Virus record (IMG/VR): IMGVR_UViG_3300034374_011314 | Location: 1 to 28,611 of that record | Reading direction: 5' to 3' (one strand) | Source: a virus | Length of the DNA stretch: 28,611 nt | In this document: positions 1-14,343 of the stretch, piece after piece | How positions within the stretch are numbered: position 1 is the stretch's first letter | How the letters are laid out: each line of letters opens with the position of its first letter | The notes under the pieces: generated by a model | The model's database searches: none | What the model saw: only the letters and a program-made list of their open reading frames with translations | Told to the model about the DNA's origin: nothing | Program-made: the position numbers and the translations under genes

Positions 1-1128
1 GCTTATGATAATTCCCAGAACAGAGCCGTATTTTCTGCAGCAAGAAATACCAGCCCATATACAAATATGAATACTCTAGCAAGTCCTGGTTATGGAACTA
101 CCATACTTCATTGGGAATCTTCTGTAGATAATATTATTGGAAGCGGTGAAGGACAGCACGAGTCTTTAGCTCATTTCATTAAATCTCTATACGATAATGA
201 TTGGTCTGGAAGAATATATGCAGACTCAGAATCATACCATAAACTTTTCTTTGCTTGGCTTAAAGTAGCTATGCCAAATATAGATGTAGATGCTGCTTTC
301 ATCCTTTATAATATAACAAGACAAAGAGAAAGTCTTGTAGAAGTTGATAATATGGCAAGCAGATCGTTTTCTGCTGATAGAGTTGCAGACGCAGACGCAG
401 AAGTAATATACACTCAAGCAGAATTTGCTAGTGCATATAACGCATTTAATGCAGCAGATACTATTGACTCTTCTTACTATACATCTGTTCGTGATGCTTT
501 AAGAGACACTCTGTGTATTGAAATTCAGCTCGCAGCTTATTTGTGTGGCGATATCACAATTACTCCTATTGCAATAAAAGGTCAAAGAATACATTCAAAA
601 ATTGGCTTTGGAATTGTTAGTGATCTAAGAGAATATATTAGAGATAATATTATGACAGAAAAAGTTCGCTCTATGACTGGCGTAACATTGAACTGGACCG
701 ATCCAAACTGGATGACTTCACTTAGAGCTGCGAATTCTGATATGGATTTTCTTTTTGACAGATCCTACGACGCCCTTGTAGAAAACTGGGAATACCGTGT
801 TGCGCATTGGGATGTAGGCTTGGGATGGCTTCAATGGGTTGTAGATAATACAAACGCAGACGATGCTAACGACGTCGAGCTTCAGGATGTTATTAAAGGT
901 GCTGAAGGAATGCTTAATAGAATAGATGGAACAAACTTATCTAACACAGAAATAAGAGATACAGCTTGGGAAGATATTATTGCAGATGATATTACTTATC
1001 AGGGAACTACTAAAGTTTGGCACTATGAATATATGCAGGAAAAAATAAATACATTTTGGATTGAGTATCTTTATCAATTAAAAATTGCAGAAAATACAAC
1101 TCAGTTAAATAAATTCAGCCATACGTAA
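1..1128 (+). CDS. Unidentified protein, 5' end outside the window
   Basis: The frame is open from the first base of the window. The first internal ATG (base 67) has no purine-rich ribosome site before it, so the gene most likely starts upstream and at least 375 residues are visible. The protein is soluble in character, with no membrane segment, rich in Asp, Glu, Asn and Trp, and it looks helical in its second half. Around visible residues 35-90 a stretch containing ILHW and, about 35 residues later, GRIYADSESYHKLFFAWL vaguely recalls the layout of DUF1835-type proteins, but this is too weak to name it. It ends 12 bases before the first radical-SAM gene, with no terminator or promoter between them, so it is probably in the same operon. 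It could be a substrate-binding, carrier or accessory protein for the radical-SAM cassette, or an unrelated virion protein. Its function is unknown. Confidence 0.75.
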   Translation, partial: AYDNSQNRAVFSAARNTSPYTNMNTLASPGYGTTILHWESSVDNIIGSGEGQHESLAHFIKSLYDNDWSGRIYADSESYHKLFFAWLKVAMPNIDVDAAFILYNITRQRESLVEVDNMASRSFSADRVADADAEVIYTQAEFASAYNAFNAADTIDSSYYTSVRDALRDTLCIEIQLAAYLCGDITITPIAIKGQRIHSKIGFGIVSDLREYIRDNIMTEKVRSMTGVTLNWTDPNWMTSLRAANSDMDFLFDRSYDALVENWEYRVAHWDVGLGWLQWVVDNTNADDANDVELQDVIKGAEGMLNRIDGTNLSNTEIRDTAWEDIIADDITYQGTTKVWHYEYMQEKINTFWIEYLYQLKIAENTTQLNKFSHT

Positions 1129-1140
1129 TAAAGGTTTGTA

Positions 1141-2250
1141 ATGATTAATATGATTGATGTCACCGAGACCGGTGATAAGTGGGGCTCTGACACCGCTGCA
1201 AATCTAATTTTCGAAAAAAGAAATAAGTCGTGCGAGATTGTTGTAATACTCTTTGAGTACTGCAACTTTGCGTGTTCATTTTGCCCACAAGATCATAATA
1301 GTAAAAAAGGTATGAACTATGAGTCTATAGTATCTAAAGCAGATATTATTGCTGAATATATTAATCAAAATAGTTTTGCTACAGAATTTGTTGTTCGAAT
1401 GATCGGCGGTGAACCATTTAATGACGCCATATTAAAAGATTCTAATCTCCTAGAAGCCTATAGAGATCTCGCAAACGGTGTGAGAGAAAAAACAAATCTT
1501 ACAGATCAAGTACTAGAATTTATTTGGATCTCTAATTTTAGTATGGTTGATACAAGAGATCAAATTAAACAGTTCATGGACGAGCAAGGTGAGGATACTA
1601 CATTCGTCGTATCTTTTGATTTAAAAGGTAGATTTAATCAAAAGAACTTACAGATATTTAAAGAGAATATCGAAATATTTGCACCTTATATTCGTAATAT
1701 AAACTCCGTGATTACGAAACAAAATATTCAAGCTCTTCTTGCAGGTGACGAATATTATGATTACTTGTACAGTAGATTCGATTATTCTTGGGATCAATAT
1801 ATTAAAGGAACGGAACACAACGACGTTGAGATACCTTTAGAATCAGAAGTTTTAGCTTTTTATAAATTATTGGTTGACAAATACCCAAAAGTAGAATATA
1901 TTATACCTTTTATGCAGCCAAAAGACCATCAGATGCATACGATATGTTCTCGTGGTAATGGTGCTGCTATTGATTGGGACAATAAGATTATTCCAGAAGG
2001 ATGTGTTGGCTCTCATTATTTAAAGAAGTTCAATTCTCCTTCTTACCGACAACATAACGGACCAGATAATTTTCTTGATAATACTTTAACGAGCTTCCTT
2101 GATAAATATAATTGTCATGCTTGCGAATTTTATCAAAGATGTCCTATGATGTGTTTCTCAGGAATAAAAGCTGGAAACATGAAGCAGGACATGGACGAGT
2201 GTATAAACAAAGAACTATTTAGATATGTAGATTCGAAGAGAGATAAATGA
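1141..2250 (+). CDS. Radical SAM enzyme with SPASM domain
   Basis: This is a radical S-adenosylmethionine enzyme. It has the cluster motif CNFACSFC (Cys41, Cys45, Cys48), followed by the SAM-contacting GGEP motif at residues 89-92. The C-terminal third has the full seven-cysteine SPASM layout for auxiliary Fe-S clusters: Cys269, then Gly287-Cys288, then CX2CX5CX3C at Cys325, 328, 334 and 338, and a last Cys354. SPASM proteins are best known as peptide or protein maturases (sactionine and thioether formation, sulfatase maturation), although some act on sugars or other small molecules. The 369 residues fit a single-domain radical-SAM/SPASM enzyme. An AAAGG ribosome site lies 6 bases before the ATG. 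The stop overlaps the next start as ATGA, so the two are probably translationally coupled. The substrate is unknown. Confidence 0.9.
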   Translation: MINMIDVTETGDKWGSDTAANLIFEKRNKSCEIVVILFEYCNFACSFCPQDHNSKKGMNYESIVSKADIIAEYINQNSFATEFVVRMIGGEPFNDAILKDSNLLEAYRDLANGVREKTNLTDQVLEFIWISNFSMVDTRDQIKQFMDEQGEDTTFVVSFDLKGRFNQKNLQIFKENIEIFAPYIRNINSVITKQNIQALLAGDEYYDYLYSRFDYSWDQYIKGTEHNDVEIPLESEVLAFYKLLVDKYPKVEYIIPFMQPKDHQMHTICSRGNGAAIDWDNKIIPEGCVGSHYLKKFNSPSYRQHNGPDNFLDNTLTSFLDKYNCHACEFYQRCPMMCFSGIKAGNMKQDMDECINKELFRYVDSKRDK

Positions 2251-4163
2251 GTAAAAAATTACGTTTAGGTTACATGTCACCACCTCATGCAGACTGGCAA
2301 ACGCCGTCTAATTTGACGTGGATGATGTTAGAAAGTCATTATAATCATGAGGGAATGTATCCCGATAAAGTAGAGTTTGTTCCTGCAACATACAAATTTG
2401 ACGTGTATCGATCTTTCCAAGAAATTAAAGAAGATATGGAGCAGGGAGAACCTCTTGACGTATACTGCTTTAGTTCATATATTTGGAACTATCAGATGTG
2501 CGATGAGGTTGCTAAGCTCGTAAGAGAGCAAAACCCAGAAGCTATTACGGTAATCGGCGGACCTCATATTGGTCGTAACGAGCCAAAACTAATGAATCTA
2601 AGATATGAACTATATGATTATATTTGTCAGGTAACCAAGCCCGGCGAAATATTCATGAACTCTCTGCTTGATGGATATTTTAATAATTTAAATCAATGGC
2701 CAAAACATGAAGATGTAACTTGGGAATGGCGCTCAAATAAAAAAGGTGTTCTAAATATCGCAGAACAAGATTATTCTGTTTATGAAGAACATATGGATTA
2801 TCTTAAAGAAATGCGCGAGTGGGCTCGTACTCAGGTACTTGAGCCATTCATGGCATTAGAATCTACTCGTGGTTGTCCATTTAAGTGTGCCTTCTGTGAA
2901 TGGGGCGGGGGTATTGGTACTAAGATCTATAAGAAAGATCTAGACATTTATAAGCGAGATGTTGAGGCTTTGAAAGACGCAGGCTTCCGAGATGCCTATC
3001 TTACCGATGCAAACTTCGGCGCATTCTTAGAAAGAGACATCGAGATCTTTGATTGGACCTTTAAGAATGGATTTAATCTTACCGACATCTCAACTTTTAA
3101 ATCAAGAGACCTTGCAAGAAGAAAGAAACTTGTTGATGCGTGGTTTGACACGTTAGGAACAGGCGAAGAGAAGCACTCAGAAGTGTTTGTACCTGAGCAA
3201 GGTTCTCATGCATTGTTCTTTATGGGCTCGGCAGAAAATCAGGCTATGGGTACCACAATTCACGTATTCAATGAACAGAATACGAGCCGTGGAATGGTTG
3301 ATAATTTTGGTGAGCAAGATGGAGAAGACTGGGAAGATAATATTAGAAGAAAGCAAGCAGCAGAAGGCGAAGCTCTTTATATCTCAGTAGTTCCAACAGT
3401 AAGTATCCAAAGTATTAGTAAAGAAGCTATGGATGTAGTAAATAGAGTTGATCTAAATTTAGAAGATAAGTTAGCACTCGCTCGCCATATTAATCAGCGT
3501 TGCAACGTTGAAGGTTATCCAAAGCCACCCGTAGAATTAATTCTAGGAATGCCTGGATCTACTATAGATGACTTCTATAATGAGTATGAGATCTACTATA
3601 ACTTTAAATCATACGGTTCATGGAGACATGACTATATGTTCCTACCAGATTCTGAACTTACAGATCCTGAATATATAAAAAAGTATGATATTGAAGTTGT
3701 GGAATGCTATACCGATGTTATTGAAGAAGGCGGGGCTGATAATAGATATGGTCTATATCGTGGCCTAAAGTCTTACTTTAAAACAATTGCATCTTGCTAT
3801 TCATTTACTCGCGAAGAATTTCATGAGATGTGGTTTATGAATGTTTGTGGTAATATTCTTTTGCAAAAGCATTATGATACATTTAAAGATGTTCTTACTC
3901 CAGCAGAGTTTTGCAGAATGTGTTACGCTGTAATTCGTGATTGTATTCCTGGTTTTGACGAAGTGCACGAAAATATTGTAGACATTTTGAATCCAGACAC
4001 TCCACCTCGTGGATTGAAAAGAATTATTGGCAACAAATCTAGATTAGAATGCATCATGGAACTGACTCAAGGTGATAACGAAATCATTCTTCTTAACGAA
4101 CTCTTTGTAAGAGCATTTTCTCAGACTACTCAAACAAAGGAATTAGAGTATGCAACTGCCTAA
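2247..4163 (+). CDS. Cobalamin-type radical SAM enzyme (class B-like)
   Basis: This is a two-domain radical SAM protein of 638 residues. Residues about 5-150 resemble the Rossmann-like B12-binding domain that precedes many radical SAM methyltransferases and cyclases, with VIGGPH near 102-107. The cluster motif is CPFKCAFC (Cys210, Cys214, Cys217), introduced by ESTRG as is typical of this family. Later the TIM-barrel signatures VSIQS and LILGMPGST match strands 4-5 of B12-binding radical SAM enzymes. The classic DXHXXG cobalamin-ligand motif is not seen, as in several family members, so cobalamin binding is inferred. Residues about 305-376 look like an insertion, polar and rich in Gly, Glu and Asp, between the barrel halves. 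Known relatives methylate unactivated carbons or rearrange small molecules. The substrate here is unknown. The gene overlaps the previous one by 4 bases and the next by 14. Confidence 0.88.
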   Translation: MSKKLRLGYMSPPHADWQTPSNLTWMMLESHYNHEGMYPDKVEFVPATYKFDVYRSFQEIKEDMEQGEPLDVYCFSSYIWNYQMCDEVAKLVREQNPEAITVIGGPHIGRNEPKLMNLRYELYDYICQVTKPGEIFMNSLLDGYFNNLNQWPKHEDVTWEWRSNKKGVLNIAEQDYSVYEEHMDYLKEMREWARTQVLEPFMALESTRGCPFKCAFCEWGGGIGTKIYKKDLDIYKRDVEALKDAGFRDAYLTDANFGAFLERDIEIFDWTFKNGFNLTDISTFKSRDLARRKKLVDAWFDTLGTGEEKHSEVFVPEQGSHALFFMGSAENQAMGTTIHVFNEQNTSRGMVDNFGEQDGEDWEDNIRRKQAAEGEALYISVVPTVSIQSISKEAMDVVNRVDLNLEDKLALARHINQRCNVEGYPKPPVELILGMPGSTIDDFYNEYEIYYNFKSYGSWRHDYMFLPDSELTDPEYIKKYDIEVVECYTDVIEEGGADNRYGLYRGLKSYFKTIASCYSFTREEFHEMWFMNVCGNILLQKHYDTFKDVLTPAEFCRMCYAVIRDCIPGFDEVHENIVDILNPDTPPRGLKRIIGNKSRLECIMELTQGDNEIILLNELFVRAFSQTTQTKELEYATA

Positions 4164-4647
4164 ATTAAAATGGTCCTACGAAGACTTTGAAGAGTACGTA
4201 TTAAGTCATGAAGCTTATATGTATGATCGCACATTATATATTGACAATCGTGGAAAAGATGTTAAAATAGTATCAGATGACTACAATGAGTACTTAGCAA
4301 AGGTACAAGTAAAGCTTGCAGAATCTAATGATACAATAAAGGTTGAAGGTATCGAACACGTTTGTGGCTTTAAAGAAGGCACCATTCATGCTTTTAGATA
4401 CTGGAAAGAATCGCCAAGTTTTGGTGTACATACTGACCCAGTTGATGTATTATTACATGTAAGTGCTGGTCACAAAACAATTGAAGTGAACGACGTTATT
4501 CATAATCTTGATGAAGGTGATTTTTGGATGATACCAGAAAATACTCCTCACAGAGCATTGAATGTACGAGAAGGATTAATGTTTAGTTATGGTTTGTCCG
4601 ATACAGAGCAATCTGAGTGTATACGTCAAGACCACCGAGACGTGTAA
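4150..4647 (+). CDS. Cupin/JmjC-like putative Fe(II) oxygenase
   Basis: This is a small protein of 165 residues with a double-stranded beta-helix (cupin) signature. An HXD motif (His94-Thr-Asp96) opens the first cupin motif. It is followed by a strand-turn-strand containing GHKTIEV, then EGDFWMIP, and then a distal His134 in TPHRA. HXD plus a distal His is the iron-binding triad of 2-oxoglutarate oxygenases of the JmjC/Cupin_4 kind, so the protein may be a hydroxylase. A non-enzymatic cupin or another metal enzyme is also possible. An AAAGGA ribosome site (4136-4141) supports the ATG, which lies inside the end of the preceding B12-type gene. Its position between two radical-SAM genes implies a shared pathway. 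Its last 59 bases overlap the next gene. Confidence 0.7.
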   Translation: MQLPKLKWSYEDFEEYVLSHEAYMYDRTLYIDNRGKDVKIVSDDYNEYLAKVQVKLAESNDTIKVEGIEHVCGFKEGTIHAFRYWKESPSFGVHTDPVDVLLHVSAGHKTIEVNDVIHNLDEGDFWMIPENTPHRALNVREGLMFSYGLSDTEQSECIRQDHRDV

Positions 4648-5650
4648 CTTAAATTGCTTCCACTGCTTTACAAGCGGAATCAACGGAGCTAAGATATACT
4701 TTGACCCAGTGGCTACCGCTAACTGGGTTAATCAGTTATATGATGGCACAAAAATATGCCACTTTGAATATCACGGTGGCGAGCCTATGCTTGCTAAAAC
4801 CGAAGATCTATTTGAATTCTATAATAGAGTACAAAGCGTATGGGGCGTAAGAGGTTCATTCGGTATTACAACTAATCTTACATATAAGTTAACAGATGAT
4901 AGATTAGATTTCTTTTCTCGTGTAATGACAGGCAAGCGTATCGGTACCTCATGGGATCCAACAATACGCTTTGCAAATGAAAAGCAAGAAAAGCTTTGGG
5001 AAGACAACGTAAGATTCTTAGTAGATCAAGGATTCATTCTTAAAGCATTTGTATCATTATCTAAGGACGTTGTCAATAGGTCTCCTCGAGAAATGATTGA
5101 TTATTTGAGAGGTCTTGGCATCACGGAAATATCTTGGGAACGTATTACCGGTAATGGTAATGCTTTGTTATATGGCGAAAAGCTTTATCCTACGAATGCA
5201 GCACTTCAAGATTTCTTTATGAGAGCATATGAGGAATGTTATGATATAAGAGAGGAGTTTGAAGATGTCTTCATGGAAACGGTCTATAACAAATTTGAAA
5301 AAGGACTCTTACACCAAGGAACGTTTTGCAGAGATTGTGAACAAAAATTATTTACGATTAATGCGGATGGTACTATTGCTGGCTGCCCTAACGCTGCTCC
5401 TACCGATCATTATGGCAATATTAAACAATCAGTAGAAGACGTTATAAATAGCAAGGGGCGGCAAAAGGTAATTATCGACGAACAAGTCATAAGAGATCCA
5501 CGTTGCTATTCGTGTCCGGTATTTGCCTATTGCCACTCCGACTGCCACCAACTTGAATGGCAAGGTGATGTTTGTCCTGCACCTAAAACTTTGATGATGG
5601 AATTGTTGAATGGAACTAATAATAAAGCCGACAGAAGCTTGCAACTTTAA
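4589..5650 (+). CDS. Radical SAM enzyme with SPASM domain
   Basis: The radical SAM motif is CNLNCFHC (Cys19, Cys23, Cys26) and the GGEP motif is at residues 63-66. The C-terminus carries a complete SPASM domain: Cys247 and Cys250 (one of them the first ligand), Gly261 and Cys266, then Cys306, 309, 315 and 319 in CX2CX5CX3C spacing, and Cys329. Strand-turn FTINADGTIAGC is the usual SPASM opening. The 353 residues match the family of peptide or protein maturases such as anaerobic sulfatase-maturating enzymes, but no sulfatase or recognisable precursor peptide is in the window. The only plausible start is the ATG inside the cupin gene, a 59-base overlap. A GAAGGA stretch lies about 13 bases before it, a little far for an ideal ribosome site. 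The product is probably translated by coupling to the upstream gene. Confidence 0.9.
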   Translation: MVCPIQSNLSVYVKTTETCNLNCFHCFTSGINGAKIYFDPVATANWVNQLYDGTKICHFEYHGGEPMLAKTEDLFEFYNRVQSVWGVRGSFGITTNLTYKLTDDRLDFFSRVMTGKRIGTSWDPTIRFANEKQEKLWEDNVRFLVDQGFILKAFVSLSKDVVNRSPREMIDYLRGLGITEISWERITGNGNALLYGEKLYPTNAALQDFFMRAYEECYDIREEFEDVFMETVYNKFEKGLLHQGTFCRDCEQKLFTINADGTIAGCPNAAPTDHYGNIKQSVEDVINSKGRQKVIIDEQVIRDPRCYSCPVFAYCHSDCHQLEWQGDVCPAPKTLMMELLNGTNNKADRSLQL

Positions 5651-6662
5651 GTGTACTTTCTGTTCGTCTACAGATATTGATCCGAATAAAGCAAAGCTTT
5701 TGGATCATGATTATATTTTCAAATTTTTAAAGAGGTATCCTCACACTCGCACCATTATCGTAAATGGTGGCGACCCTTTGATGGTGGAACCTAGTTATTA
5801 TTGGAAGATTATAGATCATTTAGATGAGCATGACTATCCTGCGAATATTAGTTTCACAACCAATTTATGGCCTTTTGTTGTAAAGCCAGAGAAGTGGATA
5901 GATTTATTTCGCCATCCACGTCTAGGAATATGTACCAGTTTCCAATATGGTAAAGGTCGTTTAAAAGGCGATTACACAATCTTCACAGAGAAAGATTTCT
6001 GGTTAGCATCGAATAAGATGCTAGATCTTGTTGGATATCGTCCAGATTTTATTGCAGTTATGACTGATGAAGATGCACCAGATGCTATTCGTAATGTTGA
6101 GCTTGCTAAGGAAATGGATGTCGAATGCAAACTCAATTATGCTATGGCCTCTGGTATACAAGGGTCCACTTACAGACTAAGTAAGATTTATGAGACTTAC
6201 GTTGAAATTTACGATCGAGGTCTGTGGAAGTGGGAATATAATACCAAGCAAATGATGCGGAGGTTAAAAGGTAATGCAACAAGTTGTCCACAAAATCGTC
6301 GATGCGACGAACACATACGGGCCTTCAATCCTGGAGGTGATTACTATTCTTGTGGTTCCTTTGGTGATGATAGGGATTATCCTATCTCCTTTGACTATGA
6401 GTTAAACGGAGGATTTTCCACTCCACTACAAGATGACTTTAATATTCAAACATTAAAGCAAGCCTGTTATAGTTGTCCCATGTTTGAAATATGCAATGGC
6501 TGTAAAAAGACAGTGCGTGATATGAAACGAGAAGGGCAAGCAGAATCTCATTGCAAACACATGAAATCTCTTGCCCCTCGTATTTTAGAAATTAACGGAT
6601 TAGATCCAAACAGTGTAACCCCATATGTGAATGAGGAAATTGATGTTCTCAGTATCGATTAA
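5610..6662 (+). CDS. Radical SAM enzyme with SPASM domain
   Basis: The radical SAM motif CNFKCTFC (Cys11, Cys15, Cys18) is close to the N-terminus, with a GGDP variant of the SAM motif at residues 53-56. The C-terminal SPASM-type cysteines are Cys226, Cys232, Gly243 and Cys248, then Cys286, 289, 295 and 298 (CX2CX5CX2C, one residue tighter than usual), and Cys315. The protein has 350 residues. It differs clearly from the preceding SPASM proteins outside the motifs, so this is not a recent tandem duplication. The start lies inside the preceding gene (41-base overlap) with only a weak TGATGGA upstream, which suggests coupled translation. The substrate is unknown. A peptide or protein maturase, or a small-molecule enzyme, is equally possible. 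Confidence 0.88.
   Translation: MELIIKPTEACNFKCTFCSSTDIDPNKAKLLDHDYIFKFLKRYPHTRTIIVNGGDPLMVEPSYYWKIIDHLDEHDYPANISFTTNLWPFVVKPEKWIDLFRHPRLGICTSFQYGKGRLKGDYTIFTEKDFWLASNKMLDLVGYRPDFIAVMTDEDAPDAIRNVELAKEMDVECKLNYAMASGIQGSTYRLSKIYETYVEIYDRGLWKWEYNTKQMMRRLKGNATSCPQNRRCDEHIRAFNPGGDYYSCGSFGDDRDYPISFDYELNGGFSTPLQDDFNIQTLKQACYSCPMFEICNGCKKTVRDMKREGQAESHCKHMKSLAPRILEINGLDPNSVTPYVNEEIDVLSID
6633..6637 (+). promoter_or_regulatory. Ribosome binding site deciding the start of the fifth radical SAM gene
   Basis: GAGGA lies 5 bases before the ATG at 6643, inside the 3' end of the preceding gene. It makes 6643 a better start than the in-frame ATG at 6631, which has no purine-rich stretch before it. Confidence 0.6.
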
Positions 6663-7566
6663 TCCAACCTATTTTTGTAATTTTAATTGTGATTTCTGCT
6701 ATCTCAGTGCAGAACAATTACGTAACAGGCAAACAGCTTCTATTGACACGATTATGGCACGATTAAGTGAGATTAAGCCTACTGTGACACACATCGATCT
6801 TTATGGTGGTGAGATTGGTATTCTACCTGATACATATTTAGATGATTTGATCGATAGAATTAAAGATAAATACGAATGCACAATATCGATTATCACCAAT
6901 CTTTCTGCAATACGCAAATCATTTCTTAGAGAAGATATTGATCTATCTGTATCATATGATTTTGGTGCTCGCGAGAAAGAGATGATCGTGTTCGGTAATA
7001 TGCTTAAGTTAAATAGACCATTTTCGGTATTGACATTAGCATCAGAATATGTTATAAATGAAGATGTAGACTATATGATTAATATGTTTAACACTCTAGG
7101 CAATCTGATTGCTGTAGAGATTAAGCCATTTAGCTCTACAACTCATCGTAAGCAGTATGTTACTGATCTTGAATACGAAGAGTTTATTATGAAATGGATT
7201 GATAGTCCTATTGAGAAGAACTTTCAATTCATAAATCAAGATAAGATAGAGGAATGTTTAGATGGCAATTATAACGCCTTTAGCGATGATCATGTGTATA
7301 TTACTCCTAACGGCAAGTTTGGTGTATTGGATTTCGACCTACTTGGTAATGAAAGCTTTACGGAACTGGAATCCTTTCTAGAATATGAACAATGGACCGT
7401 AAAAGAAAAGAACAGCGGCGTATCAGATATATGTAAAGAATGCAAATATTTTGGAAAGTGTTTAACCGAGCACTACAAATTTGTAGCATTCCCACCAAAA
7501 CAAAACGGTTGCAACGGTTATTTCAACCTACTAGAATGGTATAATGAAGACGCAGTACGAGTATAG
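6643..7566 (+). CDS. Radical SAM enzyme with reduced C-terminal cluster domain
   Basis: The radical SAM motif is CNFNCDFC (Cys12, Cys16, Cys19 from this start) and a GGE motif is at residues 55-57. The C-terminal cysteines are reduced compared with the neighbouring SPASM enzymes. The strand-turn TPNGKFGVLDF, where the first auxiliary-cluster cysteines would sit, has none; only Cys264, 267 and 273 (CX2CX5C) and Cys290 remain. That would allow at most one auxiliary Fe-S cluster (twitch-like). The start at 6643 is preferred over the in-frame ATG at 6631, because GAGGA at 6633-6637 lies 5 bases before 6643 while 6631 has no ribosome site. This leaves a 20-base overlap with the previous gene. It is 307 residues long, the shortest of the five. 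Its substrate is unknown, and it may work with or regulate its neighbours. Confidence 0.87.
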   Translation: MFSVSINPTYFCNFNCDFCYLSAEQLRNRQTASIDTIMARLSEIKPTVTHIDLYGGEIGILPDTYLDDLIDRIKDKYECTISIITNLSAIRKSFLREDIDLSVSYDFGAREKEMIVFGNMLKLNRPFSVLTLASEYVINEDVDYMINMFNTLGNLIAVEIKPFSSTTHRKQYVTDLEYEEFIMKWIDSPIEKNFQFINQDKIEECLDGNYNAFSDDHVYITPNGKFGVLDFDLLGNESFTELESFLEYEQWTVKEKNSGVSDICKECKYFGKCLTEHYKFVAFPPKQNGCNGYFNLLEWYNEDAVRV

Positions 7567-8290
7567 AGTACAGTATCAACAAGAATATAGCAGAAAAGAC
7601 GATCCTCATTTACGAAGTGTAGAAGATGGTCATCGTTATGCTATGTTTGAAAAAGGTAATCTACATCTCGTCAACGGAAGAACTTACATGTTCCGAGATC
7701 ATCTTGGACAATATGTAAGCACATTTGTAAGTCAGTACTCAGATATAATCGATAATAATTTAGAGCCCGGTGTAAAAAGGGCAGTACTTGAGTTACATAA
7801 GAAAGGTTACTTGACGTATACAAGTTGTCAAGGCCACGACGATTCCAGACACAGGTATATTGGAGTCGTATTTAATACAAAAGAGCAGAAACAAGAGTTT
7901 ATAGAAGAGGTGAATAAACTTCGTTGTGATATTTACTGGTATGACAACGCAATAAATACAGTCGAAAGGCCAAAGAAACCAGTACCTTGGTGGTCTGACG
8001 CAATACACCTACATATAGTTTATGATGATTTCTCGTTTGCTAATTCTCCTATTGCAGACAGGAAAGATAAACCATACACCGACGAGGATCTTACCAAGTT
8101 TTGGAATATTCAAATGAATCGTGAATATACTCATTACGAATCAATTGTATTTACGTTTGGTTACCCAATGGTAGAAAGAAACATGTGGGAAAGAATTAAG
8201 AAGTTATTTTTCTATAATCACTATAAAGTCACCAGTGCATATCTAGATTTTTGTGATAAGGCACAATTATTAAAGGAATACGAGGCATAA
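7544..8290 (+). CDS. Conserved-looking unidentified protein with SCQGH motif
   Basis: I do not recognise this protein of 248 residues. It has no signal peptide or membrane segment and is rich in Tyr, His, Arg and Asp. The centre carries KGYLTYTSCQGH (Cys95, His98) followed by DDSRH, which looks like a small conserved functional patch, possibly metal- or nucleotide-binding; phage and bacterial proteins with a comparable TxSCxGH stretch exist but have no agreed role that I can cite. A second cluster, WWSDAIHLHI, lies near residues 148-157. The gene starts 23 bases before the end of the fifth radical-SAM gene and its stop overlaps the next start (TAATG), so it belongs to the same transcript as the radical-SAM cassette. 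It may be an accessory factor. Confidence 0.8.
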   Translation: MKTQYEYRVQYQQEYSRKDDPHLRSVEDGHRYAMFEKGNLHLVNGRTYMFRDHLGQYVSTFVSQYSDIIDNNLEPGVKRAVLELHKKGYLTYTSCQGHDDSRHRYIGVVFNTKEQKQEFIEEVNKLRCDIYWYDNAINTVERPKKPVPWWSDAIHLHIVYDDFSFANSPIADRKDKPYTDEDLTKFWNIQMNREYTHYESIVFTFGYPMVERNMWERIKKLFFYNHYKVTSAYLDFCDKAQLLKEYEA

Positions 8291-8700
8291 TGAAAGAATG
8301 GAAAATCAGGCAACAATATTTCAGTATGGTTAATGGAGATGCAGAATATAAAGATGATCTGAGAGATGTAGAAATTAATTTAGTAGAAGGCGAGGATATT
8401 ATTACAGAAGCAGTTCGCCACTTCGAAGAATACGTAGATGAATGGATCTACCCATCTAAATCTTATGTTGTTGCTATTTGTTATGCCACTTGGATCGAAG
8501 ACGATTTTGATGAAGATTTCTATGATACATTAAACGATGCGGAATTGTTACCACACGATCCGTATTTCGTTCCATACGATGAAGACCGTTATACATATGA
8601 CGCTATTCTTGATGCTATCGGTGAAGTTGATATGACTGGTATGGTACCGGATATCTATGAATATTATAAAGAAGAGATTTTAGAATCTGTAGATGAATGA
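8290..8700 (+). CDS. Small acidic unidentified protein
   Basis: This protein of 136 residues is strikingly acidic (long runs of Asp and Glu, for instance around residues 74-84) and Tyr-rich. No signal peptide, membrane segment or catalytic motif is visible. The start overlaps the previous stop as TAATG, with GAGG close by as ribosome site. Its own stop overlaps the next gene as ATGA. The charge suggests a DNA-mimic, inhibitor or binding-partner role, but nothing in the sequence proves one. It joins the radical-SAM block to the 2-oxoglutarate oxygenase block, so it is probably co-transcribed with both. Confidence 0.78.
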   Translation: MKEWKIRQQYFSMVNGDAEYKDDLRDVEINLVEGEDIITEAVRHFEEYVDEWIYPSKSYVVAICYATWIEDDFDEDFYDTLNDAELLPHDPYFVPYDEDRYTYDAILDAIGEVDMTGMVPDIYEYYKEEILESVDE

Positions 8701-9200
8701 ATTATGAAAAACTAAAGCGTGATGGATACTGGCATTTTAATGATCCACGGCTCTTTACTTATTTAAAGTGGTTCTATAGATGTCCTATGATAAGCAATCA
8801 TGGAATGAAGTATCCAATTCATTATTGGCCAGTAGGTCTATGGCTGTTAAGAAAAACGCAGAAGAAGATTGATAAGTTAATTTTAAAAAATACTTTTTGC
8901 ACCTTTGGTAATGTAGATGCTTGGAGAGGTATAGATCAAAAAACAGATGTGTGGCACACAGATCATATAGAAGGATCTAATATAGCTTTCTTAATGTATT
9001 TAACAGACATGGATGAATCAACTGGTGGCGGGATTGAAATCAAAAGAAGAAAATATAATTTGTACGATACCATATATCCAAAAAAGTATGACATTGTCGT
9101 TTTAAATCAAACTGACTATTTTAGACATAGAGTTATAAACTTAAGAAAGTCTATAAATAGAGATGTGGCAAATATAGAATTTAATATTATGGAAAGGTGA
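8697..9200 (+). CDS. Putative 2-oxoglutarate/Fe(II) oxygenase (prolyl-hydroxylase-like)
   Basis: The core of a prolyl-4-hydroxylase-type 2OG-Fe(II) oxygenase is visible: HXD at His87-Thr-Asp89 in WHTDH, a hydrophobic strand FLMYLTD, a GGGIEI turn, and a distal His144 in FRHRV followed by Arg150 or Arg155 as candidate 2-oxoglutarate contact. At 167 residues it is short but contains the whole double-stranded beta-helix. Such enzymes hydroxylate protein side chains or small molecules. In phages of this type several often occur near structural genes with unknown targets. The start overlaps the previous stop (ATGA). The gene is 4 bases from the next oxygenase. Confidence 0.78.
   Translation: MNYEKLKRDGYWHFNDPRLFTYLKWFYRCPMISNHGMKYPIHYWPVGLWLLRKTQKKIDKLILKNTFCTFGNVDAWRGIDQKTDVWHTDHIEGSNIAFLMYLTDMDESTGGGIEIKRRKYNLYDTIYPKKYDIVVLNQTDYFRHRVINLRKSINRDVANIEFNIMER
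9152..9159 (+). promoter_or_regulatory. Possible T4-type late promoter box inside coding sequence
   Basis: A perfect TATAAATA lies 46 bases before the ATG of the oxygenase gene at 9205, a distance like that of the intergenic boxes in this window. It is inside the end of the preceding gene, and the genome is AT-rich, so it may be chance. Confidence 0.3.
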
Positions 9201-9204
9201 AAAT

Positions 9205-9900
9205 ATGGATAATCCAAGTATTGTAAAAATTCATCCAACTCACATTTTAATTAAAGATAATCTTCCTTTTACTGATGAAGAAATGGATGAACTAAGAATA
9301 TGTGCGCATGCTACATGGACTCATCATTATGAGCACGGCATTGGAGAGCCAGGATATCATGTAAACTCAGATCCTTTTCCCTTATTTACAGAAGAAAACA
9401 TTAAGCTGTTTCCAGTCTTAGATAAGGTGAGAGAAGAGTTTAAAAAAGGTTTTCTTGAGCTTGCTGAATCGTATGAAGGCAATACTCTTACAAAGCAACA
9501 AATTGATGAAATGATCGCAAACCAACATGGGCAAATGCCTGTCATGAAAGAAGGCGATTATATTGCTTTGCATACACATCCTGGTTCCTTAGCATATGGA
9601 CTATTCTATTTAGATGATGTTGATAATGATAAGGAAGGCGGAGTACTACAACTTTGGGATCCATCATTCCACACAAATCCTGGTATGAGAAATCCTCAGA
9701 TCTATGAGGTGGATACGAGAGCTCGAAGAATGGTTATTGTTCCGACTTATATCTGGCACAATGTCACTCAATACTTTGGTAATGAAAGAGTAACTGTTGT
9801 TTGTAACCTGTCAATTCACCCGGATGTGGAAAGAATCATGACTTATAATGGTGTGAAAACAGAAGGCCATGAAAGTGGCTACGATCCGGCGCAGGTGTGA
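9205..9900 (+). CDS. Putative 2OG-Fe(II) oxygenase (2OG-FeII_Oxy_5-like)
   Basis: This protein of 231 residues resembles the 2OG-FeII_Oxy_5 family of marine phages and bacteria. It has a HTHPGS motif (His123 and His125), a GLFYLDD strand, a GGVLQLWDP strand, and the distal IWHNV (His185) with Arg195 ten residues later, the expected place for the 2-oxoglutarate-binding arginine. In this family the first motif often reads HXH rather than HXD, so metal-ligand geometry should not be assumed from the classic triad. The ribosome site GGAAAGG lies about 8 bases before the ATG. A possible late-promoter box lies 46 bases upstream. The next oxygenase starts one base after the stop. The target is unknown. 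Confidence 0.82.
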   Translation: MDNPSIVKIHPTHILIKDNLPFTDEEMDELRICAHATWTHHYEHGIGEPGYHVNSDPFPLFTEENIKLFPVLDKVREEFKKGFLELAESYEGNTLTKQQIDEMIANQHGQMPVMKEGDYIALHTHPGSLAYGLFYLDDVDNDKEGGVLQLWDPSFHTNPGMRNPQIYEVDTRARRMVIVPTYIWHNVTQYFGNERVTVVCNLSIHPDVERIMTYNGVKTEGHESGYDPAQV

Positions 9901-9901
9901 T

Positions 9902-10462
9902 ATGATTATTGAAAACTTATGGCCTACTCAAGTAGCAAAAGGCAAGTTCAATATGCCAGGTCTTGCTGAGCATATTCTTACCGAGTATGATTTACAGTCA
10001 CCACCTAGTGATGTTGGTGGATATAACATTATGGACGACGGCTCGGATGTTATTATTGACTTTGAAGAGATGGTTTATCAAAAGTTTGATGAGTATTTGA
10101 AGAAAACTATAGGTAAAAAGATTACAGACTATCGCCAGTATGAGATGAAAGGATGGATAACCGGCCACGGCAAAGATTATTCTATGACAATTCATAATCA
10201 TTCCGGAGCTCATTTGTCGGCAGTCTTTTATGTATTAGCAGAGGATCGGAGTTCTGGTGGGGATATTGTTTTCTCAGATCCAAGAAGTAATGCTAATAGA
10301 GGATATGATGAGTGGTTTGATCCAATGTTTGAAAGATACCATCATCAACCAGAAACCGGAGATTTTATGATATTTCCGAGCTTTACATATCATCATGTTA
10401 ACCCGTATTACTCGTCATTACGAATATGTGTACCCGTAGATCTCTATTTGTATAGAGGTTAA
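9902..10462 (+). CDS. Putative 2OG-Fe(II) oxygenase (2OG-FeII_Oxy_5-like)
   Basis: This is a family relative of the preceding gene, starting MIIENLWP, a common opening for 2OG-FeII_Oxy_5 proteins. It has HNHSGAHLS (His98 and His100), the strand AVFYVLA, GGDIVFSDPR, and a distal His164 in YHHVNP with Arg174 ten residues later. The start at 9902 is chosen over an in-frame ATG at 9869 because the family N-terminus begins here and the start then follows the previous stop by one base. It has 186 residues. Nearby paralogy with the preceding gene suggests an old duplication, but overall similarity is confined to the core motifs. The target is unknown: a virion protein or a metabolite. Confidence 0.82.
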   Translation: MIIENLWPTQVAKGKFNMPGLAEHILTEYDLQSPPSDVGGYNIMDDGSDVIIDFEEMVYQKFDEYLKKTIGKKITDYRQYEMKGWITGHGKDYSMTIHNHSGAHLSAVFYVLAEDRSSGGDIVFSDPRSNANRGYDEWFDPMFERYHHQPETGDFMIFPSFTYHHVNPYYSSLRICVPVDLYLYRG

Positions 10463-10543: not shown

Positions 10544-10942
10544 ATGGCTTTCTCATACAGCACAACTGTTACTAACCTGAAGGTTAGAGATCAGGTAAAC
10601 AGCGAAGGCGTTACTCTAAGCAACGCTGTTGTTCAAACATATTGGAAACGCACAGGAACGGATGCAGACGGCAACGAAGGTACCTTTTCAGGCGCAACTC
10701 CTTTTACAGCAGAAAACGTGCCTGCTGGTTCTTTCGTGGCTTTTGAAGATCTTGAAGAAGCTACTGTAGTAGGTTGGATCAATGCAGTAATTGATGCAGA
10801 TGCAGCCTATAAAACTCACATTGATGAACAAATTCAAAAACAAATTGACGCTGGCTTAGAAGAAGATCGTAACCCTCCTTGGGTAGTAGCAGAAGAAGCA
10901 CCAGCGCAATCTGACGCAGATCCAGACGCACCAGCAGAATAG
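10544..10942 (+). CDS. Small structural-type protein, paralogue of the next gene
   Basis: This protein of 132 residues has an N-terminal beta-rich part and a helical second half, ending in an acidic Asp-Ala-Pro tail. It shares with the next gene the pattern LSxAxVxxxWKR (here NAVVQTYWKR), a following acidic DADG turn, and a helix VVGWINAVI in the same relative position. The two are therefore probably diverged paralogues. I recall similar small proteins near tail genes of marine T4-like phages without known function. Placement directly after late-type promoters and before sugar and fibre genes suggests a late, perhaps virion-associated, product. The GGAG ribosome site is 8 bases from the start. 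Confidence 0.85.
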   Translation: MAFSYSTTVTNLKVRDQVNSEGVTLSNAVVQTYWKRTGTDADGNEGTFSGATPFTAENVPAGSFVAFEDLEEATVVGWINAVIDADAAYKTHIDEQIQKQIDAGLEEDRNPPWVVAEEAPAQSDADPDAPAE

Positions 10943-10949
10943 GTGAATA

Positions 10950-11288
10950 ATGAACTATTCTTGGGAAATACTCAAGCTCACCACACAAGAGGAAACGAGC
11001 TCTGATGGTTCCAGCCTTTCAGATTCTATTGTAAGAATTGACTGGAAACGCAGAGCTGTTGACGATGACGGTACAGAAGCAAGTTACAAAGGTGTTACCC
11101 ATGTTTCAGCTTCAAGCACTTTGGCTGAAGATTTTATTGCACTAGCTGCAGTACAAAAATCTCATGTTATTTCATGGATTGAATCTAACATGTCAGACGG
11201 TGATGTCGCAATCATGAATAAGACTTTGCAGGATAAGATAAATACTAATAGAGCAACAAGGAGTTCTTTTAAACCTGCTTGGAACTAA
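10950..11288 (+). CDS. Small structural-type protein, paralogue of the previous gene
   Basis: This 112-residue protein is aligned to the previous gene by the DSIVRIDWKR segment, the DDDGTEA turn and the helix HVISWIES. It lacks the acidic Asp-Ala-Pro tail and ends near a Pro-Ala-Trp, where the paralogue has Pro-Pro-Trp. The gene starts 7 bases after the previous stop with an AGGTGA ribosome site. Its function is unknown, and a shared role with its neighbour (for example as a heteromer) is only inferred. There are no cysteines and no signal peptide. Confidence 0.82.
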   Translation: MNYSWEILKLTTQEETSSDGSSLSDSIVRIDWKRRAVDDDGTEASYKGVTHVSASSTLAEDFIALAAVQKSHVISWIESNMSDGDVAIMNKTLQDKINTNRATRSSFKPAWN

Positions 11289-11313
11289 GTGAATTTTATA
11301 TTATGGAGTTAAG

Positions 11314-12357
11314 ATGCATGATCTGTACACAGGCGGCCTAGCCACCTATGCCCTTAAAAGAGGCGGAACAATTAAACCGGTTATCCTGCCAACGGAAGTT
11401 TTAGGATCTCACGGCGAAACCGGTTTAATGAATCCATCTATTTTCCTTCATAAGGGAAAGATTCTTTTAAACATACGTCACGTCAACTATATTCTCTATC
11501 ATTCAGAAGGTAAAAAGTATCCCCACCAGTGGGGTCCTTTGGTGTATGTGCATCCAGAAAATGATGTATCCCTCACGACATATAATGTTATGTGCGAGCT
11601 TAATAATGATTTAGATCTGCTTAATGCTCAGCGTGTGAATACATCTGCCTTCGATACTAAACCTACATGGAACTTTATTGGATTAGAAGATTGCCGACTA
11701 TTTGAGTGGGACGATCGTCTATTCCTATGCGGTGTTCGTCGCGACTGTTACGATGATAAAGGCAAAGGCCGCATGGAAATGCAAGAGATCGAGTTTATTG
11801 ACGGTGAATGGAAAGAAGTGTCTCGTAATCCTATTCCTGCACCAAATGGTGATGAAAGTTATTGCGAAAAGAACTGGATGCCGGTAAATGATATGCCATT
11901 CCATTTTGTAAAATGGACTAATCCCACCCAGCTTGTAAAATACGATATTGAAGAAAGAACATGCGTAGATGTTGTTAATGATCCGGACAAATATAAAGAG
12001 TACAGTCAATTTGATTTTAGAGGTGGTTCCCAAGTAATTCGTATCAATGACCAGCAAAGAATGGCGATTGTTCATGAAACAAATCTACTACGAGATCCTT
12101 TTCAAAGAAAAGATGGTTGTTATAACCACAGAGTTGTAATATGGGATAATGATTGGAACATTGTTCATGTGTCGAGAAGTTTCCACTTTCTAGGAACATA
12201 TTACGATCATGTAAAGAATACCGATTACAATATTGAGTTTGTAACCGGCGCTGCTATTTTAGATCAAGATATTTTGATTTCATTTGGTTGGCAGGATAAT
12301 GCAACTTATATATTGAGAATGCCGCTTAAAGCATTTGAGAATTTCTTGAGAGGTTAA
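11314..12357 (+). CDS. GH130-like beta-propeller protein (glycosidase/phosphorylase-related)
   Basis: This protein of 347 residues shows repeated beta-blades and signatures of the five-bladed beta-propeller glycoside phosphorylases and related proteins (GH130-like): NPSI early, GLEDCR at residues 123-128 (the family usually has a G.EDPR motif), FRGGSQVI in the middle and ISFGWQDNATYI near the end. GH130 enzymes phosphorolyse or hydrolyse mannosides. Phage and viral relatives are often found beside glycosyltransferase and FkbM genes and may act in glycan decoration. The Cys in place of Pro in the EDPR motif is unusual. The ribosome site is GGAG before the ATG. The next gene, with an FkbM-like methyltransferase domain, begins one base after the stop, so the two are probably co-expressed. 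Confidence 0.65.
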   Translation: MHDLYTGGLATYALKRGGTIKPVILPTEVLGSHGETGLMNPSIFLHKGKILLNIRHVNYILYHSEGKKYPHQWGPLVYVHPENDVSLTTYNVMCELNNDLDLLNAQRVNTSAFDTKPTWNFIGLEDCRLFEWDDRLFLCGVRRDCYDDKGKGRMEMQEIEFIDGEWKEVSRNPIPAPNGDESYCEKNWMPVNDMPFHFVKWTNPTQLVKYDIEERTCVDVVNDPDKYKEYSQFDFRGGSQVIRINDQQRMAIVHETNLLRDPFQRKDGCYNHRVVIWDNDWNIVHVSRSFHFLGTYYDHVKNTDYNIEFVTGAAILDQDILISFGWQDNATYILRMPLKAFENFLRG

Positions 12358-12358
12358 T

Positions 12359-13600
12359 ATGAAATTTGAAAACCTACATTTGTTAAATGATGTTGTAATG
12401 GATTATGATAATCCTGAGAAGATCTACAAACTTGCTTTTGAATATGATAAGCTTAAACAAGGCGCTGCAGCTTTTGGTTGGTATCTACGAGCAGCAGATA
12501 TGTCAAAAGGTGACACCTTTGAATCTAAATGGCTTCAATATAAATCTATTCTTCGTGGCGCTGCAATCTTCCATAGAGCTGGCAACAGAGATCATACAAC
12601 AGGTGGTTTATATAAGATGGCTATTCAAACTTTGCCTGAAAGACCTGAAGCATATTACCTGTATTCTAAATGGCAGATGGATAGAAGTGATTGGAGAGAA
12701 GCTTTAGTATATTCTAAGATAGGATTGAATTGCAACCACGATCCTATTGTAGACCCTGATCTTGACTATCCAGGTGTGCTTGGATTGAAATATGTAAATG
12801 CAATGTCTGAATGGAAAACAAACGGTAGAGATGATTCTAAGAATCTATTGTTCGATCTAAAATATAAGAATAAGCTTGACTCTGTTACAGATAATGAAGT
12901 AACTGGTGTTCTTAACAATATTGGCTATCCAAGTACATTGACATACACTCCAGAATTATACGAGAAATGGAGATGGAAGTTTGATGGCCAAGAATCAATT
13001 GAAAAGAATTATTCAAGACACTTCCAAGATATGTTCGTTTTGGCCTTTACAAATGGTAAGAAACATGGTACATTTATAGAAATAGGTTCAGGACATCCTG
13101 AGCTTTACAATAATACTCTGCTTCTTGAAAAAGATTTTGGTTGGAAAGGATTGTCAGTTGACAACTCAGAAAGATTCTGTTCTCAATTTTCGAGATCGAG
13201 AAATACTACTATCATACAAGCAGAAGCAGATAAAATTGATTACAACATGTTATTTAAATCAAATTGTGTAGAAAACTTTATTGACTTTATTAGATATAAT
13301 GCAGACTACGCATCTATTACTGCTCTTCAAAATACGCCTTTTGATAAGTATGAGTTTACAGTAATTCAAGTTCAGCACAATGCATGTTGGTGGGGAGACG
13401 AGATGAGAGCTAAGTCTCGTGAAATATTGAGCAAGATCGGTTATATTCTATTTGTACCTGATGTTGCAATTAACGAGACAGATAACTATGAAGATTGGTG
13501 GATTCATCCAGGATTCCTTACACCAATGAATGAGAGAATGAAAGCTCCAGAAGATACAAACTTTGCTTGGAGATATATGATGAAGGAATATAGAGTATGA
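12359..13600 (+). CDS. Helical-repeat protein with FkbM-like methyltransferase domain
   Basis: The N-terminal half (about residues 15-200) is made of amphipathic helices in TPR-like pairs, similar to the repeat region that follows glycosyltransferase domains in some sugar-modifying proteins. The C-terminal half has the SAM-binding loop GTFIEIGSG (from Gly237), then a GWKGLSVDN strand that fits motif II of FkbM-family methyltransferases, and acidic residues after it. FkbM enzymes methylate hydroxyl groups on sugars or polyketides. Together with the neighbours this suggests O-methylation of a glycan or polyol. The whole protein has 413 residues and overlaps the next gene as ATGA. Methyltransferase assignment is reasonably sure; the repeat assignment is less so. 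Confidence 0.7.
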   Translation: MKFENLHLLNDVVMDYDNPEKIYKLAFEYDKLKQGAAAFGWYLRAADMSKGDTFESKWLQYKSILRGAAIFHRAGNRDHTTGGLYKMAIQTLPERPEAYYLYSKWQMDRSDWREALVYSKIGLNCNHDPIVDPDLDYPGVLGLKYVNAMSEWKTNGRDDSKNLLFDLKYKNKLDSVTDNEVTGVLNNIGYPSTLTYTPELYEKWRWKFDGQESIEKNYSRHFQDMFVLAFTNGKKHGTFIEIGSGHPELYNNTLLLEKDFGWKGLSVDNSERFCSQFSRSRNTTIIQAEADKIDYNMLFKSNCVENFIDFIRYNADYASITALQNTPFDKYEFTVIQVQHNACWWGDEMRAKSREILSKIGYILFVPDVAINETDNYEDWWIHPGFLTPMNERMKAPEDTNFAWRYMMKEYRV

Positions 13601-14343
13601 GAGTAGTTGTAGTTACAGGTGGATTTGATCCACTTCATTCAGGACATATCGCTTACTTTAAAGCTGCTAAGGAACTGGGTGATATTCTTTGTGTAGGACT
13701 TAATAGCGATGAATGGTTGGTTCGTAAAAAAGGCCGGCCATTTATGCCGTTTGAAGAACGTAAAGCAATTGTAGAAAACATCAAATGTGTTGGTAATGCT
13801 TTCGGTTTTAATGACGACGATAACAGCGCTATTGCTGCAATTCAACATGTAAAAGATATGTTTCCACGTAATTCTGAAATCGTGTTTGCAAATGGCGGAG
13901 ATCGTACTAAAGACAATATTCCTGAGATGGTATTCGATGATGTAGAATTTGTTTTTGGCGTAGGTGGCGAAGATAAAAAGAATAGCTCATCATGGATTCT
14001 ATCTAACTGGGATAAACCTGAAACTCAGCGCAAATGGGGAAAGTATAGAGACCTAGATCAAAATGGACATTGGAAAGTAAAAGAACTATCAATTGATTCT
14101 TCATTGAGCGACCAAAGACATTTCCATAGATCCGAACATTGGCATATTGTAGATGGTGAGCTAGAGATGATTCTTGAATTCTCAAACGGTTATAAGACTT
14201 CTAAGATCTATGGATCTGGCGAAAGTATTGATATTCCTCTTAATACTTGGCACAAAGCTACTAATGTAGGTGAAAATGCTTGTAAAGTAATTGAAGTTTG
14301 GATGGGTGATACACTATCTGAAGAAGATATTGAAAGAAGATAA
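13597..14343 (+). CDS. Cytidylyltransferase (TagD-like) fused to a C-terminal cupin
   Basis: Residues 1-140 are a nucleotidyltransferase of the glycerol-3-phosphate cytidylyltransferase/HldE-C type: GGFDPLHSGH with His14 and His17 of the HXGH motif, a GLNSDEWL strand, PFEERKAIV, and KNSSSWIL where TagD has its RTXGISTT-like motif. Residues about 165-240 are a cupin like the C-terminal domain of mannose-phosphate guanylyltransferase/isomerase proteins: RHFHRSEHW (His175, His177, His181) and a distal WHKA (His219). The fusion could couple activation of a polyol or sugar phosphate with isomerisation or epimerisation, but the substrate is not visible. The gene is followed by a short gap with a late-promoter box and then by fibre genes. 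Product linkage to virion or host-surface decoration is inference. Confidence 0.82.
   Translation: MRVVVVTGGFDPLHSGHIAYFKAAKELGDILCVGLNSDEWLVRKKGRPFMPFEERKAIVENIKCVGNAFGFNDDDNSAIAAIQHVKDMFPRNSEIVFANGGDRTKDNIPEMVFDDVEFVFGVGGEDKKNSSSWILSNWDKPETQRKWGKYRDLDQNGHWKVKELSIDSSLSDQRHFHRSEHWHIVDGELEMILEFSNGYKTSKIYGSGESIDIPLNTWHKATNVGENACKVIEVWMGDTLSEEDIERR

Follow-up and report, generated by a model that had tools for sequence, protein, structure and literature searches.

A radical-SAM gene cassette of T4-like and jumbo phages is bound to a conserved CH-repeat protein tail and may form a RiPP-like maturation line

Introduction

Most of the described systems closest to the locus reported here use radical S-adenosylmethionine (radical SAM) enzymes. 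The locus is a cassette of five radical-SAM genes (RS1 to RS5) and their partners in a 28,611-base stretch of viral DNA (IMG/VR record IMGVR_UViG_3300034374_011314, positions 1 to 28,611; this whole stretch is called the window), accompanied by a gene for a protein ending in a Cys-His (CH) repeat tail. The His-Xaa-Ser system (HxsA/HxsB/HxsC/HxsD) likewise has His-Xaa-Ser repeats and radical-SAM proteins, whereas the phage repeat is normally CHxS, each locus of at least 16 kb holds four to nine radical-SAM genes and the cassette is mostly phage-borne. All Hxs matches were far under the family cut-offs: for HxsA, a variant tail protein (stretch L328) scored 16 bits against 121.65 and four other tail proteins scanned gave nothing, HxsB matched RS3 nearly over its full length at 30.7 bits of 370 and HxsC matched RS1, RS4 and RS5 at 17-25 bits of 268. 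Cyclophane systems use short precursor peptides, whereas the locus has a protein of 124 to 364 amino acids (aa) and several enzymes, and a crosslink is here a proposal from residue spacing. The triceptide or three-residue cyclophane enzymes (XncB, OscB, MscB, HaaB, YhhB) resemble the cassette enzymes as SPASM radical-SAM proteins, joining an aromatic residue or His at position i to the Cbeta at i+2; passages of PMC11002830 describe this joining of residues i and i+2 and, for HaaB and YhhB, crosslinks from His C2 to Cbeta. In NCBIfam, RS3 matched the darobactin maturase DarE best and RS4 the dynobactin maturase DynA, but both scores were far under the cut-offs (46 bits each against 650 and 450) and these maturases have a different substrate. 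Proteusin pathways combine a radical-SAM epimerase, a B12-dependent radical-SAM methyltransferase and an Fe(II)/2-oxoglutarate (2OG) hydroxylase, the same enzyme classes on one ribosomal chain. Proteusin leaders are nitrile-hydratase-like, whereas the two tail proteins scanned showed no Pfam match.

Related genes have been reported in phages. Passages of PMC5332604 describe 12 radical-SAM genes in one T4-like genome and discuss them as Fe-S metabolism, and parts of PMC11898562 and PMC8066314 list cassette genes (cupin, radical SAM, 2OG-Fe(II) oxygenases) in Burkholderia jumbo phages and give no function for them. No tail or tail-cassette link was found among the titles and abstracts listed from open-licence literature on phage ribosomally synthesised and post-translationally modified peptides (RiPPs) and viral radical SAM. 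The enzyme classes and the logic of radical-SAM, RiPP-like maturation are known; the substrate, setting and scale are new.

A conserved C-terminal tail accompanies the cassette

The window was a T4-like phage fragment, as the first-pass annotation had proposed, with T4-type terminase and tail sheath domains in a domain search of its proteins. The five radical-SAM genes with overlapping ends described at 1141-7566 were recovered as open reading frames (ORFs) with a cupin gene among them, and CX3CX2C, which marks the radical-SAM superfamily, was present in 5/5 proteins. Along RS1-RS2-cupin-RS3-RS4-RS5 the junctions overlapped by 4, 14, 59, 41 and 32 bases. These genes stood, while the limits assigned to the five-gene cassette did not: closely packed genes, for u248, SM136 and three oxygenases of the 2OG-Fe(II) type, continue after RS5 up to a right-hand limit at about 10462, and the cassette starts upstream of the window, as seen in the overlapping contig L010 (100% identity across 14,659 bases).

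Among the upstream neighbours, a protein family with a variable body and an almost fixed C-terminus was noticed. In the window phage this protein had 192 aa and the C-terminal end CHNSCHTSCHSSRGRR, and the consensus of the family was CHx[SN]CHx[SN]CHx[SAN]RxRR directly before the stop codon. With CHxxCHxxCHxxRxRR written as a DNA pattern, a scan of IMG/VR matched at least 120 stretches. Among the 120 matches listed, the motif was in frame in 117 and ended at a stop codon in 115; L100, L135 and L210 (not in frame) and L149 and L152 (low-complexity ORFs with the motif not at the end) were dropped, and L173 and L189 share one contig. All 115 C-terminal tails listed had cassette radical-SAM genes in their record: 110 showed a match to a cassette radical-SAM family (E 1e-4) inside the fetched stretch, L123, L173 and L205 were on the cassette contigs of L014, L061 and L012, and L198 and L211 had RS4 in their records. 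A ribosomal chain with a conserved core is thus encoded with enzyme genes, as in RiPPs. In the reverse direction, which covered RS4 contigs of at least 25 kb, the tail was found in 30/35 records, and the tail pattern read backwards gave 0 matches in the same records. In the five tail-less records RS4 was 0.2 to 7.7 kb from the contig end; in L041 the tails were about 10.5 kb from RS4, on the side corresponding to the contig-end side in those five. The tail was also present in 7/7 cassette records of INPHARED. Overall, this is a genuine and widespread cassette, tied to one precise tail at a protein C-terminus.

A total of 140 distinct complete tail proteins were compared, with bodies that formed ten blastp groups once the tail was removed and contained no Cys in 99 cases. 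The invariance of the tail Cys, His and Arg is not independent evidence because the search pattern fixes those positions. At the pattern-free positions, counted from the C-terminus, -13 was S/N in 134/140, -9 was S/N/A in 139/140, -5 was S/A/N in 140/140 and -3 was G in 127/140. His was therefore followed by S/N/A at i+2, the spacing of three-residue cyclophanes, in 134, 139 and 140 of the 140 tails, and three to four H-x-[SNA] repeats were present per chain. Two variant tails located via the enzymes (CHSSHSSHSSHSSRGRR and CHSNHCSHSNHGSRGRR) again stood directly before the partner gene f14, and the C-terminal ends of the variant proteins were YCHSNHCSHSNHGSRGRR and WCHSSHSSHSSHSSRGRR. The L328 variant kept only the first Cys and retained the H-x-S spacing and the enzymes. 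A second RS4-like copy lies near a variant tail at L326 13482-14489 (G089:C1); it showed two stops in the genome-search alignment, yet an open 337-aa frame by ORF calling.

Identity of the radical-SAM enzymes and their partners

Pfam Radical_SAM matched all five proteins, with RS4 and RS5 passing the curated cut-off and RS1, RS2 and RS3 under it. The three full SPASM cysteine sets and one reduced set noted earlier were borne out by seven to nine conserved C-terminal cysteine columns across the families in RS1, RS3 and RS4 and four in RS5; the Pfam SPASM cut-off was passed by RS3 only. RS1, RS3, RS4 and RS5 shared a match to phrog_1802 (E 6e-28 to 2e-57), and hhalign linked the profiles of RS1-RS3, RS3-RS4 and RS4-RS5 at 96.7 to 99.0%. 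By its sequence matches, RS2 is a separate B12-type enzyme: the B12-binding-type N-terminus first described from the letters alone gave a Pfam B12-binding match of 26.3 bits (cut-off 32.1), and the best NCBIfam match was the KedN5 subfamily of B12 radical-SAM methyltransferases (102 bits, cut-off 700).

Among the NCBIfam matches listed (for RS3 to RS5 the best 25 of 35-39), none of the five proteins reached an enzyme-family cut-off, and RS3 passed the SPASM domain model only. The best partial matches listed for RS3 and RS4 were peptide or protein maturases (DarE, DynA, PapB and sulfatase maturase, the last also among the best for RS4). The suggestion of an undescribed modification pathway resembling peptide maturation gained support from these searches. 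RS5 matched the three-residue cyclophane-forming enzymes (3-CyFEs) GrrM/OscB at 33.6/310 bits and AmcB at 28.9/425 bits, below their curated cut-offs. The nearest solved sequences were 8vpo, 5wgg, ChlB and a sulfatase-maturating enzyme for RS3, and a sulfatase-maturating enzyme, nearly full-length, for RS4.

Candidate identities were rejected on the same NCBIfam cut-offs. In agreement with the first-pass annotation, which had set these genes apart from QueE and NrdG, RS1 reached 26.7/260 bits for QueE and 21.9/131 bits for NrdG2. Prokaryotic viperin, the best match of RS5, reached 42.1/180 bits, and sulfatase maturase was far under its cut-off.

The partner proteins f14 and SM136 were modelled with a predicted local distance difference test (pLDDT) of 95.5 and 91.9, respectively, and the models showed no PDB match at E 0.001 (Foldseek, VIA-align; best Z of f14 4.3, residues 1-55). 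Because these confident predicted folds have no PDB match, we only infer a recognition or scaffold role for them. For f14, f21 and the scanned tail proteins no Pfam family was found, and NCBIfam gave only chance-level or weak HxsA-type matches; f14 and the tail proteins matched unnamed PHROGs only.

Conservation and spread in phages

The IMG/VR scan with RS4 produced 139 relatives, and the best 80 of these were analysed. The clustering sample consisted of 90 sources (the window and L006-L094), all selected by RS4 or RS2, in which L090-L094 repeat contigs of L010-L015. RS4 was present in 90, RS5 in 86, RS3 in 82, the OGb-type oxygenase in 79, SM136 in 74, RS1 in 67, the cupin in 62 and RS2 in 27. 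Of the 80 RS4 loci, 26 extended 7 kb or more to either side of RS4; all 26 contained RS1, SM136 and OGb, while RS5 was present in 25, RS3 in 24, f14 in 22, the cupin in 21, a further radical-SAM family (f0) in 14 and RS2 in 11. In the 26 loci with a length of 16 kb or more, radical-SAM genes numbered four to nine per locus. The cassette is not a chance arrangement, because dozens of phage contigs have its genes side by side.

RS4, RS3, SM136 and f14 each matched the same seven of 50,697 phage records in INPHARED, namely Phosso, FLC6, FLC8, SURPRISE13, DT01 and Atu_ph07 (two records), which are six isolated jumbo phages; RS2 had 0 matches among these 50,697 records. The gene set was found again in IMG/VR contigs, jumbo phages and Bdellovibrio-type genomes, with an inner order that differs between groups of relatives. 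Neither outcome named in the first-pass annotation as weakening its proposal, membership in well-known subfamilies or an order conserved in no other phage, was therefore observed. Family f0 occurs in up to five tandem copies on the opposite strand (L017-L065), with CX3CX2C in 138/139 distinct rows; its carriers include phages with two CH-tail genes, and it was seen outside this group as well (DT01, L074).

Bacterial carriers

A search of 84,980 bacterial and archaeal genomes with the tail pattern gave 88 stretches, 17 of them C-terminal. One match, L227, was dropped as a chance 29-aa ORF, and cassette genes were beside the tail in 15 of the remaining 16. Eight of these 15 matches were from genomes named as Bdellovibrio-type bacteria, a group that contains predators. 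The flanks of several bacterial loci looked chromosomal by eye (pyruvate kinase, bS20, SecA, a cytochrome oxidase operon), while L215, L234, L253, L255, L274 and L301 look like phage contigs binned with metagenome-assembled genomes (MAGs). The MAG Rhodobacteraceae Water_Bin34 holds three of these, FZLS01000005, FZLS01000029 and FZLS01000078 (L255, L274, L301), with two CH tails each; they are apparently co-binned phages. In one Bdellovibrio-type family the cassette is an accessory trait, because a strong RS4 (E <1e-60) was found in only 8/95 genomes. In the RS4 tree the Bdellovibrio-type rows need two changes; they may have a single origin, and the direction of phage-bacteria transfer is not settled by the tree.

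Genes with a prepilin N-terminus and Peptidase_S74 were beside five bacterial cassettes; the Pfam cut-offs were passed in L304 and L312 (both tested), and L306, L311 and L327 were assigned by eye. This resembles the Bdellovibrio MAT S74 fibres described in parts of PMC10769870, as S74-type fibre genes stand beside the bacterial cassettes; the term 'radical SAM' occurs nowhere in the main text of that paper. A conserved family of 184-209 aa with the motif GKCYxDTxEGA..C..RCQKSVxGIASD adjoins the pilin-S74 gene in five Bdellovibrio-type loci (Table 1). Passages of PMC7070040 report a 'radical SAM gene cluster' without assigned purpose in Pseudomonas megaplasmids, together with chemotaxis and type IV pilus genes. 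That pilus pairing is reminiscent of the pilin genes beside the bacterial cassettes, and the cluster was rejected as the same system, with RS4 (the only query) unmatched in 72,556 plasmid records at 1e-20.

Link to the virion

The CH-tail protein of Atu_ph07 is gp170. Counting on from gp170, gp182 has 129 aa, which we take to be about the size of the small baseplate wedge protein of T4. Passages of PMC6102473 name gp182 a baseplate wedge subunit and report 131 virion proteins by electrospray ionisation tandem mass spectrometry (ESI-MS/MS), most of them in the clusters of coding sequences (CDS) 31-76, 170-215 and 284-329. Since gp182 has the size of a baseplate wedge protein, the numbering used here agrees with the numbering in those passages, and gp170 would open the second cluster. 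In SURPRISE13 the cassette comes after a baseplate assembly gene and a virion structural gene. One member of a fibre-type family, f23, was scanned and matched a tail-fibre PHROG. The tail protein has better support as a virion protein than as a fibre tip, because f23 is near the tail in only part of the loci.

Proposed role and alternative explanations

In the preferred reading, which is given a probability of roughly three in four, the cassette is a RiPP-like line that matures a single phage protein. An enzyme line that remodels a protein end is suggested by the fact that the cassette travels with the same Cys-His-x-Ser repeat tail. The tail protein would be a virion part of the tail, fibre or baseplate region, as it opens a virion-protein cluster in Atu_ph07 and fibre-type genes are near part of the loci. 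The SPASM enzymes RS1, RS3, RS4 and RS5 would act on the tail, with f14 and SM136 as putative recognition or scaffold partners. Crosslinks from His to Cbeta are the first guess for the chemistry, because each four-residue repeat has His at position i followed by Ser, Asn or Ala at i+2; thioethers of Cys, or Cys acting as a ligand, come second. Optional B12 radical-SAM methylation and 2OG-Fe(II) hydroxylation would finish the tail, and the rigid modified end could help to engage or breach the Gram-negative envelope of host or prey, which would explain the sharing of the cassette with Bdellovibrio-type bacteria. Tentatively, and with the odds somewhat against it, this extends to an unrecognised maturation class in which a multi-enzyme radical-SAM line would equip a fibre-tip protein with a C-terminal warhead that is crosslinked, methylated and hydroxylated. 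Contractile-tailed phages and predatory-type bacteria, the latter on fibres anchored to pili, would both use it to attach firmly to the Gram-negative envelope or to pierce it.

Several observations weigh against the maturation-line reading or parts of it. That the enzymes modify the tail is well supported by co-occurrence and unproven, and the cyclophane chemistry is a guess from residue spacing. The probable substrate gene is about 1.1 kb upstream of the window in the overlapping contig and not inside it, and hence was invisible to the first-pass annotation. In the 182 cases counted, the next gene downstream of the tail (within 200 bp) was f14 in only 93, f0 in 18 and f21 in 2, and it was outside the defined families in 69. 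The Pfam and NCBIfam scans of cassette and tail proteins showed no PqqD-like RiPP recognition element (RRE), and the nearest solved sequences for RS5 were viperins, which act on nucleotides. The MAG contig L261 carries a tail without a cassette gene in 5.4 kb and without RS4 in the 1.0 Mb genome. The presence of gp170 in virions is deduced from the cluster limits stated in those passages on Atu_ph07. Family f23 was upstream of the tail ORF within 200 bp in 8/180 cases and within 5 kb in 49/180, with many of the stretches cut, and homology of the Bdellovibrio fibre-like gene to f23 was not supported (hhalign probability 1.3%).

The alternative that survives best, although unlikely, is that the CH tail stays unmodified and serves as a tip that binds metal, and the cassette acts on something else nearby. 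Phage spike tips carry His-coordinated metal, the Cys/His spacing suits ligation, each chain having three residues of Cys and three of His (nine each per trimer), and Cys is almost absent from the tail-protein bodies. Such a tip predicts tails without enzymes, whereas none occurred among the 115 IMG/VR tails listed and L261 was the sole exception among the 16 genome matches; moreover, the L328 variant has one Cys only, yet keeps the H-x-S spacing and the enzymes. A slightly poorer prospect is that the tail is the carrier or source of a small product that is cut off as a cofactor or toxin, following a logic like that of pyrroloquinoline quinone (PQQ) or mycofactocin. Sets of several radical-SAM enzymes and oxygenases do make small products in bacteria, but the length of the tail proteins and the ten groups of bodies are unlike a leader, no Pfam peptidase was found among the cassette proteins scanned (with u248, SM136, f14 and f21 among them without family), and the place of gp170 at the start of a virion cluster, as delimited in those passages on Atu_ph07, also speaks against it. 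Synthesis of a modified sugar or nucleotide that would go into glycans of the fibre or the envelope, or of an anti-defence nucleotide, is very improbable: the resemblance of RS5 to viperin and the glycoside hydrolase (GH)-like, FkbM-like and cytidylyltransferase genes that follow in 29, 24 and 24 of the 90 sources favour it, but these three families had no match in the jumbo-phage or Bdellovibrio-type stretches examined, RS3 and RS4 look like peptide or protein maturases, and the tail would be left unexplained.

If the maturation line is real, one protein of the virion ends in a structure that is built by enzymes and looks non-ribosomal, with several radical-SAM enzymes involved (up to nine in the loci read), which to our knowledge would be new for virion biology. 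It would also explain why about 10 kb of these phages is spent on oxygen-sensitive chemistry. That Bdellovibrio-type bacteria share the system suggests that both face the same obstacle, the Gram-negative envelope. Many new candidate peptide-modifying enzymes with a defined 16-residue target are provided, and the six isolated phages make the system directly testable.

Feature coordinates and adjoining genes

Table 1. Features of the cassette, its upstream genes in contig L010 and the family adjoining the bacterial pilin-S74 genes. Negative positions are relative to window base 1; bit scores are given with the cut-off in brackets.
Feature	Position	Strand	Basis or remark
Fibre-type gene, end part	-2390..-1722		L010 contig
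CH-tail protein, 192 aa	-1722..-1144		L010 contig
f14, partner gene	-1131..-34		L010 contig
u353 (f21 family), 3' part; partner gene between tail-protein gene and RS1	1..1128	+	start 44 bases upstream of window, in L010
RS1, radical SAM with SPASM-type C-terminal cysteines	1141..2250	+	ORF, Pfam, PHROG, cysteine columns
RS2, B12-type radical SAM, nearest KedN5-type C-methyltransferases; optional member	2247..4163	+	Pfam, NCBIfam
Cupin	4150..4647	+	Pfam Cupin_2, 27.1 bits (27.2)
RS3, radical SAM/SPASM, nearest DarE-type peptide maturases	4589..5650	+	Pfam, NCBIfam, solved sequences
RS4, radical SAM/SPASM; IMG/VR scan query	5610..6662	+	Pfam, NCBIfam, solved sequences
RS5, radical SAM with reduced four-Cys C-terminus	6631..7566	+	Pfam, NCBIfam, cysteine columns
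u248, protein without assignment	7544..8290	+	in 15/90 sources
SM136 (phrog_20737), 136 aa, core partner	8290..8700	+	PHROG match, conservation
OGa, 2OG-Fe(II)-type oxygenase	8697..9200	+	26.6 bits (27), just under
OGc, 2OG-Fe(II) oxygenase	9205..9900	+	31.8 bits (27)
OGb, 2OG-Fe(II) oxygenase	9869..10462	+	50.1 bits (27)
184-209 aa family member	L304 7150-7704
184-209 aa family member	L306 17694-18323
184-209 aa family member	L312 5929-6528
184-209 aa family member	L311 6546-7148
184-209 aa family member	L327 1329-1883

A second block adjoins the cassette at window 10544-14343 and contains a DUF7936 pair, a GH-like gene, an FkbM-like gene and a cytidylyltransferase plus mannose-6-phosphate isomerase gene. 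This block was kept in a group of relatives, with the GH-like family in 29/90 sources.

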